IMG/VR virus record: IMGVR_UViG_3300020000_000041
Span: 1-38,551 of that record
Reading direction: 5' to 3' (one strand)
DNA: 38,551 nucleotides
From: a virus
Shown here: positions 1-17,535 of the stretch, in pieces
Layout: each line of letters begins with the position of its first letter
Position numbering within the stretch: the first letter of the stretch is position 1
The notes under the pieces: model-generated
What the model saw: the letters and a program-made list of their open reading frames with translations, nothing else
Told to the model about the DNA's origin: nothing
Database searches by the model: none
Program-made: the position numbers and the translations under genes

Positions 1-1096
1 TATAACGATGGAAGTGGAAAGAATATGTATCGGTTGCGAATGATTTGAAACCATAAGAAACGGCTGCTTCCTGACCAAAACCTACTGAACCGTAAGTTAC
101 CATTCCGTTAGGGTACTTACCAAATAACAAGTTGTTGATGTCTTGTCTTTGCTGAATATCTTGCAAGAAGTGGTACTCCGCAGGCCCACCATTGTAATCA
201 ATTACTTTGGTAAGATTTTGGAAATCTCCGATTGTGAAATTGTACTGTGTATAAACTACATCAGAACCTCTTGATACAACTTCAGGGATACATCCGATAG
301 TACCGATGTCAGTTGTGTTAGAGTATGGCACACCTTCCATTACTGCATCTTCGATAGATACCATCATCTGCTCGTTCATTGTTTTTACAGCAAGTCTTGG
401 CAGATAAAATTCATCTTCACCAAAATCAATCTGTGTTTTATTCATTGAAGCAAGGTCACTTGCTTTTACTGAAGCACGAAGAACAGTTGCGGTATTATCA
501 TAACGATACAACTTTGGTTGTTGCGTACCTTGTGAATCAGAAGACTCACCCGCAAGTTGATTACCGAAAGTTTCCAAACCTTCGCCTGCAAGCAAGAAAC
601 CTGAAGCTGCTGAACCACTATTCAAAGCATAAGAACCAAGTGGAACAAGGTCTGCTGTGAATGCGCCTGCTGTTCTGACAATGTTTTGAATCCTTGCTTT
701 ACGACCATTAGAACGAAGTTTAACGGTCTGTAAGTTAAGGAACGGTGATTGTGTGCCTGCTGCGTTGTTATAAGAATCAGGAGATTTGAATGTGATAGAA
801 ACGGTTGCGCCTGCTGTTGCATTTACGTTAGCATTATTAATACCAACTCCAAAAGGACGACCTTTCTCAAAGTGTGAATATGTATTTGTAGTGGTTGTTT
901 GTTCTTCTACGGTTGATGCTCCGAGCATTTCGGAAGCAAGCATATAAGAACTATTACCATACTTGGCTATCAATTTTGGTTTCCATTCAGGGATTACGAA
1001 ATTGAGTTCATTGAAGATGCCTGTTGTTAGCCCCGAAGGGTAGGCTATCGTTCCGGGTGCGCCAGTTGCACCCCTATAAATTGCCGGTACTGCCAT
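1..1096 (-). CDS. major capsid protein (partial, C-terminus beyond the left edge)
   Basis: The reading frame is open from an ATG (complement of 1094-1096) to the window edge, giving about 365 residues without a stop. The N-terminus is MAVPAIYRGATGAPG, followed by an arm-like helix region (residues 27-60) containing NELNFVIP and KYGNSSYMLASEMLG. The rest is a Gly/Ala/Thr-rich, beta-rich protein with phrases such as KTMNEQMMVSIEDAVMEGVP, typical of HK97-fold capsid subunits of Bacteroidetes phages. It is the last gene seen of the terminase-scaffold series, which is the normal place for the major capsid gene. The capsid identity is inferred from position, size and composition, not from a catalytic motif. 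The first part of the arm is mirrored by a 74-aa protein at 10576-10800. There is no Shine-Dalgarno; the start is preceded by an A-rich stretch. A different major virion protein is the main alternative. Confidence 0.75.
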   Translation of the reverse strand, partial: MAVPAIYRGATGAPGTIAYPSGLTTGIFNELNFVIPEWKPKLIAKYGNSSYMLASEMLGASTVEEQTTTTNTYSHFEKGRPFGVGINNANVNATAGATVSITFKSPDSYNNAAGTQSPFLNLQTVKLRSNGRKARIQNIVRTAGAFTADLVPLGSYALNSGSAASGFLLAGEGLETFGNQLAGESSDSQGTQQPKLYRYDNTATVLRASVKASDLASMNKTQIDFGEDEFYLPRLAVKTMNEQMMVSIEDAVMEGVPYSNTTDIGTIGCIPEVVSRGSDVVYTQYNFTIGDFQNLTKVIDYNGGPAEYHFLQDIQQRQDINNLLFGKYPNGMVTYGSVGFGQEAAVSYGFKSFATDTYSFHFHRY

Positions 1097-1133: not shown

Positions 1134-2285
1134 TTACCCAAAGGCCATCTTCTCAAACTTTTGTAGTTCTGTTTGCACTACGGGGTCTGTGTTGAAGTCC
1201 CTTTGAATACCACCATTTGTTCTTGTGTCAGTAGCAATCACTCTTTTTCTTTCTGCGTTTACTGCTTGTCTTGCGATACTCTGAGCATACTTATCAAAGT
1301 TGTCGTTAAGCAATACCATCCTTGCAAGTCTATCAGGTAAAAACTTTCCTGATTGGTCATAGCACGTTTTGGTCAGATAATCAAAAACGGACAATGAATT
1401 TTGTTTCGCTTTCTCAAAATCTTCCCTTTCTGGCACTACGGATACATCAAATTGCATTTGGTTATTTGCATCATTGATGTTTGCTTTTAATTGGATGTCT
1501 GTTTCTTTGAGTGAATTTACTGCGGGAACTGTTATGTTGTTGTAATCTTCCAAAGACTTTGCGGTACTGGCTTTATAGTCTTCGTAATCTTTATCAACAG
1601 CATTTGTTTGTGGGTGTATATCGGGTAATTCTATTTTTGTTTTATATTGGGAGAAATAATCTTGGGCTTTCTGCACATCATTTTCTATTCTTTGCTCACG
1701 CCTTAATTTCTCCTTTCTTAATTTCATTGGGTCATCCAAGTAATCATCTTCATTGATGCTATACAAAGAATTAAATTCATCATCTACTAATTCCTTGTCG
1801 AATCTTGGGTTCTGCATCTTGATATACAATTTCAATTTTTGTTCATCTGCCATTGTATCAAGACCCGTCATTAGTTCTTGGGCTTCCAAGTAATTTCTTA
1901 CTTCCTTTGTTTTACCTTCTTTTAATAGTTGATGAAGTTTTTTGCTTTCTTCATTTGCGAAAGCGATTTCTGCTGCGGTTGCCGTTGGCGTAGTTCTTAA
2001 TTTTTCAAGTTCCGCTTTTGCGGCTTCTATACTTTCCCACCCAAAATTAGTTTTGAGAAAATCACTTGCGTCTAATACTTGTTCTGCGGGAGTAGCGGGA
2101 ATTTCAGTAGCAGCAACGGGGGGAGTTTCTATCGAAGGTGCGCTAATCGGTTCTTGAGAAATTATTTTCTCTCCCCCAAAAGCCATACGCTCAAATTCAT
2201 TCATCTGTATCTGGTCGGGAGTTGGCTGTGCTGCTACGGTTTCAGGTGTGGACACACCATTAGATGCTTCAATAGCTTCTGTCAT
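1134..2285 (-). CDS. probable capsid scaffolding protein
   Basis: This 383-aa protein is acidic, rich in Glu/Lys/Gln/Ala, has no hydrophobic segment and is predicted by eye to be mostly helical with coiled-coil stretches. It sits directly upstream (in transcription) of the capsid gene, 37 bases away, the usual place for a scaffold. A short peptide occurs twice: FERMAFGG near the N-terminus (residues 31-38) and FEKMAFG as the last seven residues. Scaffolds commonly bind the capsid protein through a terminal helix, so the repeat may be a binding motif; this is inference. No protease signature (Ser/His/Asp arrangement) is visible. The ATG at 2285 is preceded by the box AAATCCAATATT three bases upstream. 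The alternative is an internal core protein without scaffolding function. Confidence 0.65.
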   Translation of the reverse strand: MTEAIEASNGVSTPETVAAQPTPDQIQMNEFERMAFGGEKIISQEPISAPSIETPPVAATEIPATPAEQVLDASDFLKTNFGWESIEAAKAELEKLRTTPTATAAEIAFANEESKKLHQLLKEGKTKEVRNYLEAQELMTGLDTMADEQKLKLYIKMQNPRFDKELVDDEFNSLYSINEDDYLDDPMKLRKEKLRREQRIENDVQKAQDYFSQYKTKIELPDIHPQTNAVDKDYEDYKASTAKSLEDYNNITVPAVNSLKETDIQLKANINDANNQMQFDVSVVPEREDFEKAKQNSLSVFDYLTKTCYDQSGKFLPDRLARMVLLNDNFDKYAQSIARQAVNAERKRVIATDTRTNGGIQRDFNTDPVVQTELQKFEKMAFG

Positions 2286-7449: not shown

Positions 7450-7995
7450 TCACTTTTTCGACAACTTGCCACAAATGTCTTCCACGAAAACTTTCACCAC
7501 CCTTCTTTCCTCTCCTTTCCAAACGTAGATAATTTCGTAATCTGAAAATTGAAAAGTAAAAACTTCGTCGCCTTTTTTGTACCCGTACCCATTGTTAAGG
7601 ATAACAACTCTATCAAAATAATTCTTTCGGTAAGTGGGGGCAAGTTCGATTGCTGCTTTTCTTTCTACTCGTTGGGCTATGATGTTCCCATTTAAGGAAT
7701 GGGCATTACCATCTTCATCTATCCTTGCAAATATTTGTCTGTCGTATGGGATGGCATAAAGTCCATCTTCAAGTTCATAGGGGGAATGTTCGGCAAATCG
7801 GTTGTGATGAACCAATAGAAATGTTCCTTTTTTTATTCTACTGTTGCTTGTTACCGCTTCGCATACCACAGGGTTTTGCTCCCTTCGGTTATTGTTGTAC
7901 TGTTTAGCTAATAGAAAGTTGATGCCGCCTAACTGTATGTTAGATTTTTGTGCAGCATCAACTCTCACTATTAGCTTATTGTTCGATGGGTTCAT
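7450..7995 (-). CDS. second GroES-like (co-chaperonin-fold) protein
   Basis: This 181-aa protein begins NKLIVRVDAAQKSNIQLGGI, then has a charged loop (KQYNNNRREQ), PVVCEAV, and IKKGTFLLVHHN. That order (beta strand, mobile-loop-like segment, strand with a following G-T/D-x-V/L strand) resembles the GroES beta-barrel: first strand, mobile loop, G-x-V-x-A-V-G strand and roof strand. The C-terminal 70 residues (from NGNIIAQRVE) contain another set of beta strands of unknown fold. It overlaps the GroES gene by four bases, which supports a chaperonin link. It could form a specialised cap, as T4 Gp31 does for capsid folding; this is inference. The sequence match is weaker than for the 86-aa GroES. 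Confidence 0.55.
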   Translation of the reverse strand: MNPSNNKLIVRVDAAQKSNIQLGGINFLLAKQYNNNRREQNPVVCEAVTSNSRIKKGTFLLVHHNRFAEHSPYELEDGLYAIPYDRQIFARIDEDGNAHSLNGNIIAQRVERKAAIELAPTYRKNYFDRVVILNNGYGYKKGDEVFTFQFSDYEIIYVWKGEERRVVKVFVEDICGKLSKK

Positions 7996-8252
7996 AAAGT
8001 ACCTACAATATCTGAATCACGCAATACAACATACACCTGACCATCAAGGTCAATTTCAAAACCACTTGTTTGATTGAAGATAGCTGTACCGTCTTTGGTA
8101 ATTGTTTTGTCGGTTACAAGTTTACCTACGGTTATTATCTTTCCTCTGTGGGCTTTTTTCTTTGCGCTATCAGGTATGAGAAGTCCGTTCTTTTCAGATT
8201 CGGGAACTTCCCTTATTACCCATACGCAATTATTGGTGGCGGTTATTTTCAT
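7992..8252 (-). CDS. groES: co-chaperonin GroES (Cpn10)
   Basis: This 86-aa protein has the Cpn10 layout: an N-terminal strand, a mobile loop with GLLIPDSAKKKAHRG (residues 23-37) corresponding to the GroEL-binding loop, the strand KIITVGK, and a C-terminal EIDLDGQVYVVLRDSDIVG that closely follows the canonical GroES ending (EIKLDGEEYLIMRESDIL-type). It is slightly shorter than cellular GroES (about 95), with a short roof region. It would cap the GroEL ring and bind through its hydrophobic loop. It overlaps groEL by an ATGA, so the pair should be made together. It is encoded downstream of groEL, opposite to the usual bacterial groES-groEL order. Confidence 0.9.
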   Translation of the reverse strand: MKITATNNCVWVIREVPESEKNGLLIPDSAKKKAHRGKIITVGKLVTDKTITKDGTAIFNQTSGFEIDLDGQVYVVLRDSDIVGTL

Positions 8253-9826
8253 ATTACATCAGTTATTATATACTGTGAAGTAAGTATTTGACAGGCTACG
8301 GATGCTGCATTTTGCAAGGCGCAACGATTGGATTTTACCGCATCAATTACCCCCGCTTCTAACAAGTCTTCGCATTGATTGGTTTTTGCGTTATACCCAA
8401 TGTTTTCATCTTGAGATATTTGTTCGGCAATCTCTTCCATATTTCCACCCGCATTTTCACATATTTGTTCAGTCGCCTTATGTATTGAATCGTAAATAAC
8501 TGTGCCGCCCTTCGTCTTAAATACTTGATTAGATGCAATTTTCCAAAATGACAACCCAGAGCCAACTATAAAACCTTCCTCTATTCCACACTTAGTTGCC
8601 CTAACCGCATCATCGGCTCTGTCTTTTTTCTCTTTCATTTCAACTTCTGTCATTGCCCCAATGGAAAGTATAGCTACCCCTTCATTTAGTCTTGCTATTC
8701 TTTTTTCAATTTTTTCTTTTTCTTCTTGCCCTTCAGTTTCTGCAAGTAATTTTTTTAATGCGTCAACCGTTTTGTCAAACTCCTTTTCATCTTTTGCCCC
8801 ATCAACTATAATAGTGCTTTCTTTCCCGATTATTACTTTCTTTGCTTGCCCCAACATTTTCAAGGTTACGTTTTCAAGTTTCACTCCTTTGAGTTCATTG
8901 ATGAACGTACCGCCCGTTACCGATGCAATATCTTCCATCACTCTTATTTTCCCTTCTCCCATGAAAGCTAAATTAACAATACAACCTTTCATTGTTTTTT
9001 GTGCTACATTGAATGTAAGTGTTGCTAATGCTTCCCCATCTGAATCCTCGCATATAATAAGTAATGGACGTTTTGTACCGAGTACCTTTTCAAGTATTGG
9101 CATTAGCGGTGCTAATTGTGAAATAGGTCTGTCGTAAATTAAAATGTATGGTTCTTCTAATTCACATTCTTCTTTTGCAGGATTGGTTATGAAATAAGGT
9201 GATGCCCACCCACGATGAAACTTAAACCCATCTGCAATCTTAATACTTGTACCAATTCCTTTTGCTTCTTCAATCGTAACACTCCCCCCTTCGCCAATTT
9301 GCTTATACGCCTCTGCAATCAAATCACCAATTACTGAATCATTGTTGGCACTTATGGTTGCTACTTGTCTTATGCGTTCAATATCTCCATCAATGGGTAT
9401 TGCCATTTTCTTTAATTCTCCAACTACATATTCAACCGCTTTTTCAATCTCTGCTTTTAACTCATGCGGATTTGCGCCTTCTTTTATTAATTTCAACCCT
9501 TCGGTAACTATTGCTTGTGTAAATAAGCAACAAGTAGTGGTTGCATCTCCCGCATCATTCATCGTCTTTTGCGCTGCTTCCTGAATGAATAACACTCCCG
9601 CTTGCACTAATGGGTCTGTTGAGTTAATGCTTTGCGATACCCGCCACCCATCTTTGGTTACAAGGATTGGATAGTTTTTTGTTCCGTAGTCTTCAATATA
9701 GCTTTGTGCAATTATGACTGTTCTACCTCTCGCACCAAGCGTACTTTTTACAGGATTAGCTACTAAATCCACGCCTTGAAGCAACTTATCTAATGCGGAT
9801 TCACCGCTACTTACTTGTTTGTTCAT
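8249..9826 (-). CDS. groEL: chaperonin GroEL (Cpn60), phage-encoded
   Basis: This 525-aa protein is a full group I chaperonin subunit that folds proteins in an ATP-driven double ring. Visible signatures are STLGARGRTVII (residues 28-39), TKDG with the conserved Asp59, the nucleotide-binding loop GDATTT (93-98; cellular GroEL has GDGTTT), the apical segment GWASPYFITNP and ISQLAPLMPILE, EVEMKEKKDRADDAVRATK with the catalytic Asp at about 406, and GFIVGSGLS (cellular GVVAGGGVA). The C-terminus stops at YIITDVI, so the usual flexible GGM tail of about 20 residues is missing. It lies between the glycan genes and groES. A role in capsid-protein folding is likely but not shown. Because the substitutions lie around the nucleotide site, altered ATPase behaviour is possible. 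Confidence 0.96.
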   Translation of the reverse strand: MNKQVSSGESALDKLLQGVDLVANPVKSTLGARGRTVIIAQSYIEDYGTKNYPILVTKDGWRVSQSINSTDPLVQAGVLFIQEAAQKTMNDAGDATTTCCLFTQAIVTEGLKLIKEGANPHELKAEIEKAVEYVVGELKKMAIPIDGDIERIRQVATISANNDSVIGDLIAEAYKQIGEGGSVTIEEAKGIGTSIKIADGFKFHRGWASPYFITNPAKEECELEEPYILIYDRPISQLAPLMPILEKVLGTKRPLLIICEDSDGEALATLTFNVAQKTMKGCIVNLAFMGEGKIRVMEDIASVTGGTFINELKGVKLENVTLKMLGQAKKVIIGKESTIIVDGAKDEKEFDKTVDALKKLLAETEGQEEKEKIEKRIARLNEGVAILSIGAMTEVEMKEKKDRADDAVRATKCGIEEGFIVGSGLSFWKIASNQVFKTKGGTVIYDSIHKATEQICENAGGNMEEIAEQISQDENIGYNAKTNQCEDLLEAGVIDAVKSNRCALQNAASVACQILTSQYIITDVI

Positions 9827-9835
9827 ATATTTATT

Positions 9836-10579
9836 TTATGGTCTTGTTGATGCCCATTTTGTTATGAATTTAGGTAGTGGTTTATTTATGGGAGACAATT
9901 CGCTATCACTAAACCAAGCATCCCATTTGAAAACATCCATATCGTTCATCTTAGGGTCAAATTCAGGTAACCGAAAGACATTGATTTGCATATTTTTTAT
10001 CTTATTAATCATCACCTCTTTTCTTCTAACAAAACCCATGTGGAAAATTTCAATCTGTTTTAAAAAATAATCACTTGCATTTGCTTGAATTGATTCCCCA
10101 TCACCAACAGACTTATAATTTGTTTTCGCAAGCCGGATAACCTGTGTGCTACACGGTTGCCTGTTTTCGGGGACATTAATATAACTATTACAATCCCTCC
10201 ATAGGTTTATTCTGGTGCAATAAAATGCCTCCCTGTCAGTTGCAATAGCCTCACGAATATACCCAAAGCTATGTTCAGAAACTATTTCATCCCCCTGCAA
10301 TAAAAAATAATAATCCGTACCAAGAAAGGATAGTGCCAAGTTCTGAAAGTATGCCAATTTTTCACGCCCCTGTTGTTTCTCCCATTCTTCTTTATCTAAG
10401 CATATAACCGTTGTCTTTGTGTCTTCGTACTGCTGAACGGTTTTGTCAGTCGTATCATCACTTCCTGCATCAAGTATTACAACTTGGTCACACATTTCTC
10501 TTAGGCATTCAATACTCTCCCGAAAGCAATAATCGAATTGCCAGCCATTGCGAATAAATATGATGCCGCCTAATGTCAT
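9836..10579 (-). CDS. family-2-like glycosyltransferase
   Basis: This 247-aa protein has a GT-A nucleotide-sugar fold at its N-terminus: IIFIRNGWQFDYCFRESIEC, then VVILDAGSDDTTDKTV (residues 33-48), the hallmark 'D-x-x-S-x-D-x-T' of GT2 enzymes, and YYFLLQGDEIVSE (90-102) in the DxD metal-site position, with GDE in place of DxD. This type resembles lipopolysaccharide core glycosyltransferases. It should transfer a sugar from a nucleotide donor in the cytoplasm; acceptor unknown. It ends ten bases before groEL and overlaps the 74-aa gene by ATGA, so it is the last glycan gene of the operon. Confidence 0.75.
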   Translation of the reverse strand: MTLGGIIFIRNGWQFDYCFRESIECLREMCDQVVILDAGSDDTTDKTVQQYEDTKTTVICLDKEEWEKQQGREKLAYFQNLALSFLGTDYYFLLQGDEIVSEHSFGYIREAIATDREAFYCTRINLWRDCNSYINVPENRQPCSTQVIRLAKTNYKSVGDGESIQANASDYFLKQIEIFHMGFVRRKEVMINKIKNMQINVFRLPEFDPKMNDMDVFKWDAWFSDSELSPINKPLPKFITKWASTRP

Positions 10580-10800
10580 AATTTATTTCCAAGTATTTCA
10601 GAAACCAATAAAAAATTACTATCACCATATTTCTCTACCATCTTAGTGTAATAATCAGGTATAAGAAAATTCAAATCATTAATTATACTACTATTAAATG
10701 ACGTTATGTTTTTAGTGGCAAGTTTTTGCGAAATATCTAAAACGATATTAGGCGCTACTATTGCGGCTACCAATGATTTAAAAAAACTTCCTCTTGTCAT
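10576..10800 (-). CDS. 74-aa protein with a capsid N-arm-like C-terminal half
   Basis: The first 30 residues are basic then hydrophobic (MTRGSFFKSLVAAIVAPNIV), resembling a signal or membrane-associating helix without a clear cleavage site. Residues 41-71 align without gaps to residues 29-59 of the capsid protein at 1-1096: 16 of 31 positions are identical by my count and most others are conservative (NDLNFLIP/NELNFVIP, EKYGDSN/AKYGNSS, SEILG/SEMLG). The gene is joined by ATGA overlaps to glycosyltransferase genes on both sides, so it is translated as part of that operon. The function is unknown. It could be a truncated capsid duplicate, a decoy or assembly modulator, or a protein sharing a partner with the capsid arm. 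Confidence 0.7.
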   Translation of the reverse strand: MTRGSFFKSLVAAIVAPNIVLDISQKLATKNITSFNSSIINDLNFLIPDYYTKMVEKYGDSNFLLVSEILGNKL

Positions 10801-11531
10801 ATAAACTTTCCTTTTAAGTCAATATCCTGATAAAACAATAATCGTTCTTTTACATAATCCCTTCTTTGCATTACTTCCGAATATCTATCTCCGTGGTTTT
10901 TTAAATTCCATGATACCTTGCCAATATGGTCTGCTACTTCATACCTCATACTTATTAAGTCATGGTCTTGGTGTCCTGCTCCTCTTTTGAGATTAAAGTT
11001 TGTGAACCCAAGATTTTTCATTTGCTCCCATTGCCAACTACCGACATCGTAACTCCAATCTTCTACTGACGGGTCACGAAAATATCTAATGCCGCCCCTT
11101 CTCATTTCATTCAAGTCAAACATCCAAAACCACGGACTTATTCTATCTTTTACTTTGTCGTTATTTATATAATTGCCATCAATCAATTCCCCTACACTAA
11201 TACAACTTCCTTTCATCTCATCTAAGTAACCATATACATTTGCCTTGTACTCCACATCCGTATCGTTCAGTATTATTTTATTTGTTTTTATATCATTGTA
11301 AATAATATTCAAAGCGTTTTCATGCCCCACATTTGAATAGCCATCGAAGAAAGGTATTTCATTTTCATTTAACCATTGTTTACTTCCGTCTGTACTCCCA
11401 TTATCATATAACATTAATCGCAAAGGAACACCATCATAGTGATGCCTAATGTAACTGCTAAGTAAAAGTTTAACACAATCTAATTGATTCCAATTAACCG
11501 CTACAAGCGTTATATCAGTATAGTTGCCCAT
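10797..11531 (-). CDS. family-2 glycosyltransferase
   Basis: From the ATG at 11531 this is a 244-aa protein. An upstream in-frame TTG at 11555 would give 252 aa but with a larger overlap of the previous gene, so the ATG is preferred. The GT2 signatures are ITLVAVNWNQLDCVKLLLSS at the N-terminus, LMLYDNGSTDGS (the D-x-x-S-x-D-x-S motif) and ILNDTDVEY, the DxD-type metal site. The C-terminal half (RRGGIRYFRDPSVEDW, GAGHQDHD) is likely to bind acceptor. It sits inside the glycan operon, overlapping both neighbours. The acceptor is unknown. Confidence 0.8.
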   Translation of the reverse strand: MGNYTDITLVAVNWNQLDCVKLLLSSYIRHHYDGVPLRLMLYDNGSTDGSKQWLNENEIPFFDGYSNVGHENALNIIYNDIKTNKIILNDTDVEYKANVYGYLDEMKGSCISVGELIDGNYINNDKVKDRISPWFWMFDLNEMRRGGIRYFRDPSVEDWSYDVGSWQWEQMKNLGFTNFNLKRGAGHQDHDLISMRYEVADHIGKVSWNLKNHGDRYSEVMQRRDYVKERLLFYQDIDLKGKFI

Positions 11532-12300
11532 CGTTATATTTTCGTTTATTGTCAAAAGCTAAATCAAGCTGTTCTTTATACTTATAAAATACACCCTTTT
11601 CATTATCATATTGTATAACAGACCATGATGTTCTATCATCTAATGAGCCTGCCGTCAGAAAGCAATTACATGGATATATTTTTGTTTCATACTTTTTATG
11701 TATAAATATATTCCTACAATATCTCTCTGTGTTCAAGTGGTTTTTATCTAATCCCAAGTGGTCGTGTTCTGCTGACATAAATGAATACGGCTCATTAACA
11801 CAATCGCTAAATGAAAGACAATATTCAACCACTATTTGAGATGGTATAACAAGCATATTCATATTTATACCACCATGTTCGCTGCCTTCCTGAACATGAA
11901 TAGCGTTCTCCCAAAAGTCTTTTTTTATAGGGAATAATACATTCGTATCAGACCTCATAAATATAAAGTAATCATACTCTGCTGAAAACATTTTTAATAC
12001 TTGTGCCATCTTCCACATATTCACATAGAAATGCTCCCCTCCCGGATACCTCCAATTACCACCATACGGGAACTCTCTTATTTTTGGCATATATAAAAGC
12101 GGGTCTGGTCTTTCATATATTTCTTTGCACACGACCTTTCTATCAAATAACTTTAATCTTTCGGCATCATCTTCAAATGTTTTCTGAGTGCAAATGAATA
12201 TATCAGCATCAAGAACATCAACCAAGTTGCTATAAATATTGGCTACTGTTTCTTTTACCGCCCTTAATTCATTAAATATGCAGATGCCGTACCTTTTCAT
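11515..12300 (-). CDS. glycosyltransferase-like protein of unclassified family
   Basis: The ATG at 12300 overlaps the stop of the upstream methyltransferase as ATGA, giving 261 aa; the longer frame from 12342 would overlap it by 46 bases. The protein starts MKRYGICIFNELRAVKETV and continues with VLDADIFICTQKTFEDD, YDYFIFMRSDTNVLFP (a D-x-N in a DxD-like position) and a His/Asp-rich stretch AEHDHLGLDKNHLNTE. This layout, a Rossmann-like start, an aspartate pair after a hydrophobic strand and an acidic/His pocket, resembles nucleotide-sugar transferases found in viral and capsule clusters. Family membership is not certain. It is surrounded by glycan genes, which supports the call. Confidence 0.55.
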   Translation of the reverse strand: MKRYGICIFNELRAVKETVANIYSNLVDVLDADIFICTQKTFEDDAERLKLFDRKVVCKEIYERPDPLLYMPKIREFPYGGNWRYPGGEHFYVNMWKMAQVLKMFSAEYDYFIFMRSDTNVLFPIKKDFWENAIHVQEGSEHGGINMNMLVIPSQIVVEYCLSFSDCVNEPYSFMSAEHDHLGLDKNHLNTERYCRNIFIHKKYETKIYPCNCFLTAGSLDDRTSWSVIQYDNEKGVFYKYKEQLDLAFDNKRKYNDGQLY

Positions 12301-17256: not shown

Positions 17257-17535
17257 ATGGCAACAGCAACCTTGATTGCAATTCCAGTTTACCAAATCAA
17301 CAGCACACAATTTATTGACCGCAGCCTATACCCTTATGGTATGTCTGTTCAATTTGCGTCTGCTACGCTCAATGTCCAACCAAATACTTCGAGTGGTGCA
17401 ATTAAAGAATTGCAGGCCTGTGGTATTGCGGGGGCAGCATTGATTTACAGCCGTGTTCGTTCAGCAGCGACAGGAGATACTATCTTCTTTTCTAACTTGA
17501 CTGCTGCGGCGATTGCTGCATTAGCTAACGCTTAA
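17257..17535 (+). CDS. small probable late/virion protein
   Basis: This 92-aa protein begins MATATLIAIPVYQINSTQF and is rich in Ala, Ser, Thr and Ile, with no charged clusters, Cys pairs or clear membrane segment. The composition suits a compact beta-rich decoration or connector protein. Its leader is the same AAATCCAATATT box seen at the scaffold and portal genes, which is the main reason to call it a late structural gene. It stands alone on the plus strand between two minus-strand blocks and is followed at once by a strong terminator. No family is recognised. Confidence 0.65.
   Translation: MATATLIAIPVYQINSTQFIDRSLYPYGMSVQFASATLNVQPNTSSGAIKELQACGIAGAALIYSRVRSAATGDTIFFSNLTAAAIAALANA

Follow-up and report, generated by a model that had tools for sequence, protein, structure and literature searches.

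A 74-residue protein of a crAss-like phage resembles the capsid N-terminal arm behind a conserved leader

The small protein encoded at positions 10576-10800 of the window (the whole 38,551-nucleotide stretch that was analysed), here called p74, carries a segment that resembles the N-terminal arm of the phage's own major capsid protein beyond chance, and its gene is real and conserved. We favor the reading, at a rough probability of 0.4, that p74 acts late as an accessory mimic of the N-arm, competing for capsid-arm docking and so tuning the assembly of its own phage or disturbing that of a rival. Should the arm be such a docking competitor, it would reveal that capsid building in crAss-like phages is subject to a further, hidden level of control or rivalry, and would supply a small natural probe for proteins that read the capsid arm. 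In the literature that we searched there was no phage gene that copies its own capsid arm onto a signal-like leader and exchanges the copy between phages.

The p74 gene is read from the minus strand (translation of 10576-10800: MTRGSFFKSLVAAIVAPNIVLDISQKLATKNITSFNSSIINDLNFLIPDYYTKMVEKYGDSNFLLVSEILGNKL), and in the plus direction its frame is full of stops. It shares a leftward block with the portal, terminase, scaffold and capsid genes of the window. Start/stop overlaps with both neighboring genes, claimed by the sequence-only reading that preceded this work, are indeed there: both are ATGA, and both partners are glycosyltransferase genes. Searches of Pfam, PHROGs and NCBIfam gave p74 no significant match to known competitors or to any named family. 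The gene and its surroundings are as follows.

7992-8252, minus strand: phage GroES
8249-9826, minus strand: phage GroEL (GroES and GroEL together, 7992-9826)
9836-10579, minus strand: glycosyltransferase family 2-like gene, downstream of p74
10576-10800, minus strand: p74, leader plus capsid-arm protein of 74 residues with an ATG start, from the ORF reading and nine family members
10588-10704, minus strand: capsid-arm segment of p74 (residues 33-71), from BLAST, shuffles and profile-profile comparison
10741-10800, minus strand: leader of p74 (residues 1-20, MTRGSFFKSLVAAIVAPNIV), conserved across the family, basic, hydrophobic and Tat/Sec-like
10797-11555, minus strand: glycosyltransferase family 2-like gene, upstream of p74

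The capsid protein and its arm lie at the far left of the window.

2-1096, minus strand: major capsid protein (phrog_13704, E 2e-12), its 3' end cut by the window edge
920-1036, minus strand: capsid N-terminal arm resembled by p74 (capsid residues 21-59), from BLAST and profile matches

The gapless alignment of p74 residues 41-71 with capsid residues 29-59 on which the sequence-only reading was built holds, and our recount likewise gave 16 identities in 31. A BLASTP search of the genome's own ORFs widens the match to p74 residues 33-71 against capsid residues 21-59 (43.6%, E 1.7e-10), and a six-frame tblastn search of the own record with p74 found the capsid arm at E 1.2e-9. The BLOSUM62 score of the p74 arm against its own capsid is 102, about 10 standard deviations above the scores of 2000 shuffles (mean -33.6, sd 13.1, maximum 13). 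The profile check that had been proposed earlier, run here profile against profile between the small-protein family and 16 capsid proteins, gave E 1.1e-13 and a probability of 98%, far from chance-level similarity; the arm is also present in the capsid proteins of the relatives, where its absence had been considered. What is more, in a record-by-record comparison of every ORF below 160 residues with the large proteins (record sets: 18 of clade A, 13 of clade B), the family member of each of the seven arm carriers matched the arm of its own capsid.

p74 is nonetheless not a capsid protein. Its residues 33-71 correspond to the N-arm of a Crassvirales-type major capsid protein (the member of the phrog_13704 group that this phage encodes), but the A-domain, P-domain, E-loop and every other capsid domain are absent from its 74 residues, and it begins with an unrelated leader. 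The capsid protein itself has 365 residues within the window, compared with 467-481 in relatives. Its arm precedes a beta-rich region (residues 84-177, from a low-confidence model) that is the positional counterpart of the E-loop insertion of phi-crAss001 (residues 79-180). No usable match to the capsid proteins was found in the PDB, and the AlphaFold models of the capsid protein and of p74 are both of low confidence. The window terminase is distantly related to those of Cellulophaga, Flavobacterium and Maribacter phages, and profile comparison ties the present capsid proteins to theirs.

A homologue search in other phages, also proposed by the sequence-only reading, added nine family members, all from uncultured crAss-like phages of two capsid clades; six have leader and arm and three the leader only. 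Clade A was represented by 17 uncultured viral records with capsid proteins 66-81% identical to that of the window, and the search of these records gave two full-length homologues. An alignment search found a third in G018, a clade-B phage whose capsid protein is far more divergent (31% identical). Further clade-B members with leader and arm occur in L132 (G025), L133 (G020) and G019, and those of G022, G023 and G024 have the leader without the capsid arm. Altogether, 7 of 31 records encode leader plus arm and 3 only the leader; because several of these records are incomplete, apparent absences are uncertain. No convincing homologue was found in the isolated phages or plasmids searched. A weak match in Dinoroseobacter was rejected, as it lies antisense to an annotated resolvase gene, and a host-encoded copy was likewise discounted, the single bacterial match proving to be the capsid gene of a phage, on a contig from a Bacteroidetes MAG. 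The contig (L168, PSRA01000107.1) comes from a clade-A phage and was binned with a Bacteroidetes genome, which hints at the host phylum.

The leader-only or unrelated tails of the G023, G024 and G022 proteins would suit a relic or drifting by-product of recombination between a capsid gene and a small leader gene, with no capsid-related function. We regard this as very improbable because the arm is conserved: despite their deep divergence the seven carriers have retained it in frame, with about half of its residues identical and the P..Y...KYG core largely intact. The overlap of the upstream gene with the start of the family gene in most carriers also argues against a relic.

The first 30 residues of p74, described by the sequence-only reading as basic and hydrophobic, are so, and they belong to a conserved leader rather than to random sequence. 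Common to all ten members are M-[NT]-R-[RGK], a basic start and a short hydrophobic run, usually followed by [AS]P-x-I/V; in the G020 leader the hydrophobic core is lost. Most clade-B leaders resemble Tat signal peptides (PF10518, the Pfam TAT_signal family) in reading MNRR-x-L-I-K, followed by a short hydrophobic stretch and AP. On the other hand, the family stays below the Pfam cut-off: its best match, in the L044 relative, reaches 13 bits against 22.7 (E 0.11), and p74 gave none. The Tat motif R-R-x-[FL]-[LI]-K is absent from the n-region of p74, which reads T-R-G-S-F-F-K, while six other members (G018, G019, G020, G023, G024 and G025) have the RR form; in clade-A leaders, including that of p74, RG takes the place of the RR or RK of clade B. 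A typical Tat-like phage peptide used as a probe gave no match. Although p74 itself has no second arginine in this motif, its leader suggests membrane targeting.

A leader resembling a Tat/Sec signal or signal anchor, in a late operon shared with the capsid genes, could also belong to an assembly helper, its arm tethered to the inner membrane to seed procapsids, or to a minor part of the virion occupying capsid arm sites. However, the phages of 24 of the 31 records presumably assemble although no copy with an arm is present, the arm would end up in the periplasm, away from assembly, if the leader were an N-in signal anchor, and G020 lacks the hydrophobic core. We consider such a role distinctly unlikely.

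The arm differs with the capsid clade, reading LNF-x-x-PDY in A and LQ-x-x-TPQ in B. Scored against the capsids of both clades, the arms resemble those of the phage's own clade in six of the seven carriers: the clade-A phages G000, G003 and G010 have arms whose highest scores are with A capsids, and the arms of G019, G020 and G025 score highest with B capsids. The seventh, in G018, is A-like by score although this phage has a B-type capsid and scaffold. In a tree of 32 arms, which rests on few columns (37), the seven arms of the small proteins do not form one group, and a single origin is rejected (p-AU 0.00028). The similarity of the G018 arm is clearly A-like, but the tree is also compatible with a position beside the B arms (AU 0.47). 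Recent direct copying from the own capsid gene was rejected as the source, the arm DNA being only 50-69% identical to that of the own capsid arm and 36% in G018. The sequence-only reading envisaged a duplicated capsid piece; a derived piece is supported, and its arms are of two types or more, A-like and B-like, on one conserved leader.

A comparison of G018 with G019 bears on how this came about. The DNA flanking the gene is nearly identical in the two; within it, the start of the leader is 95% identical, the arm about 57% and the tail 82%, followed by 100%, so that about 190 bases over the arm are strongly divergent and identity resumes at the gene end. Over 18 kb, strong divergence is confined to the arm segment, the TerS-TerL segment and a homing endonuclease-like stretch. 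The same leader and tail with different arms in near-identical DNA argue for exchange of an arm cassette, and the data indicate that such a cassette has been swapped between phages. At the level of sequence, the arm and the leader are shown to evolve as separate modules. The homing endonuclease-like gene of G019 (L135:12029-12745, GIY-YIG by eye) lies in DNA that has no match in G018 or other relatives.

Arm type also tracks terminase type in all seven carriers, the M-type terminase occurring with a B arm and the others with an A arm. Since there are seven cases and the genes are closely linked in clade B, this association may reflect hitchhiking, or a relevant partner other than the scaffold. 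The 31 records have TerL genes of three terminase types, shuffled across the two capsid clades.

The preferred reading, which is of the kind of the assembly modulator or scaffold decoy suggested by the sequence-only reading and is plausible, draws on what is known of capsid arms elsewhere. In P22 the capsid N-arm is bound by the C-terminal helices of the scaffold (PMC9965877). In 80-alpha the scaffold touches the helix of the N-arm, and the SaPI1 protein CpmB competes with this scaffold when capsid size is set (PMC5644958). In SPP1 the capsid N-terminal helix, which later turns into the N-arm, is held by the scaffold (PMC6813328). Since the scaffold docks at the capsid N-arm in all three, one would expect an unattached arm copy to gain access to the docking site of the scaffold. 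The p74 arm would occupy the usual dock of the capsid arm, most likely on the scaffolding protein or else on a neighboring capsid subunit, and by competing with capsid subunits would tune or block procapsid assembly, while the leader is proposed to target the membrane. Which partner the arm binds, that the leader acts at the membrane, and whether the effect falls on the own phage or on a rival are our inferences. The closest parallel is CpmB (PMC5644958), also a small accessory protein intruding on the scaffold-capsid N-arm contact, as p74 would. CpmB, however, binds the capsid protein in the scaffold's place, whereas p74 is similar to the opposite partner in that contact, the capsid arm, and there is no evidence that CpmB and p74 are homologous.

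A candidate for the docking partner is encoded next to the capsid gene.

1134-2285, minus strand: putative scaffolding protein, 383 residues, directly upstream of the capsid gene, assigned from position and sequence
1137-1163, minus strand: its end motif QKFEKMAFG
2175-2201, minus strand: its end motif NEFERMAFG

This protein matched no family. The proteins encoded directly upstream of the capsid genes in the window and its relatives have 380-413 residues and carry short related motifs near both ends. These are clade-specific, NEFERMAFG and QKFEKMAFG in the window and LWGM-like and SIWNM-like in clade B, as expected from lock-and-key docking, and are candidate docking motifs for the capsid arm.

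The patchy occurrence of the gene and the replacement of its arm independently of the leader make competition with a co-infecting relative, or fine self-control, likelier than a core structural role. Arms that match the own clade fit both self-tuning and rivalry. The A-like arm of G018, beside a B-type capsid and scaffold, fits rivalry but not self-regulation, and it is the case that points to a rival-directed weapon. In the strong form of that idea the gene would be a swappable weapon in phage-phage competition, its conserved leader bearing arms matched to rival capsids and stopping procapsid assembly by co-infecting relatives; this form we hold to be unlikely. Against the competitor reading as a whole we count the G020 leader without a hydrophobic core, the majority of relatives without the gene and the association of arm with terminase.

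The main alternative is that p74 acts as a decoy against a capsid-sensing host defence, its arm binding the sensor without triggering it or parking it at the membrane. CapRel and the Thoeris system of Staphylococcus sense major capsid proteins directly (PMC9712102, PMC11312562), so capsid proteins are read by other cell proteins and a mimic of them could matter. The family is patchy, exchangeable and fast-changing, like anti-defence genes, and the match of arm to own capsid in six of seven carriers would be in keeping with a decoy. These are host sensors, however, and p74 is a phage protein; the idea needs a sensor that reads this arm, and no known sensor does. The G018 arm is unlike its own capsid, and no defence or anti-defence gene was identified adjoining the family (no PADLOC search was made). 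We consider a decoy possible but somewhat unlikely.

The genomic setting of the gene varies. G001 and G002, the nearest relatives, lack the gene, and their two glycosyltransferase genes adjoin one another directly. The family gene follows another glycosyltransferase-like gene in G010, lies among small unknown genes near GroEL in G003, and in clade B is found near a small cysteine-rich gene upstream of the terminase. Whether the gene always lies beside capsid or glycan genes had been raised by the sequence-only reading; the late structural block is constant, but the glycan neighbors vary between phages. An exported fragment linked to glycosylation, one of its suggestions, is unsupported, since some relatives have the gene between small genes unrelated to glycans. 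Its suggestion of a GroEL decoy is weakened: there is no Cpn60 gene in ten clade-B records, six of which have family members (three with the arm). Because of these varying neighbors and the missing Cpn60, neither glycan genes nor phage GroEL are constant companions of the family.

Two further small genes were noted. A 70-residue protein of G022 (L138:787-999) is similar to the C-terminus of that phage's capsid protein (33% over 48 residues, E 7e-6 pairwise). It was rejected as a second capsid mimic, as its G023 and G024 homologues had no match to their own capsids in the all-ORF scan, and the resemblance is perhaps due to chance. A lone gene for 75-110 residues lies on the opposite strand between the chaperonin/structural and glycan genes, at 17257-17535 (plus strand) in the window; most records of both clades have such a gene, with homologues or positional counterparts, for example, at L040:11962-12225 (minus) and L044:8617-8949 (minus).
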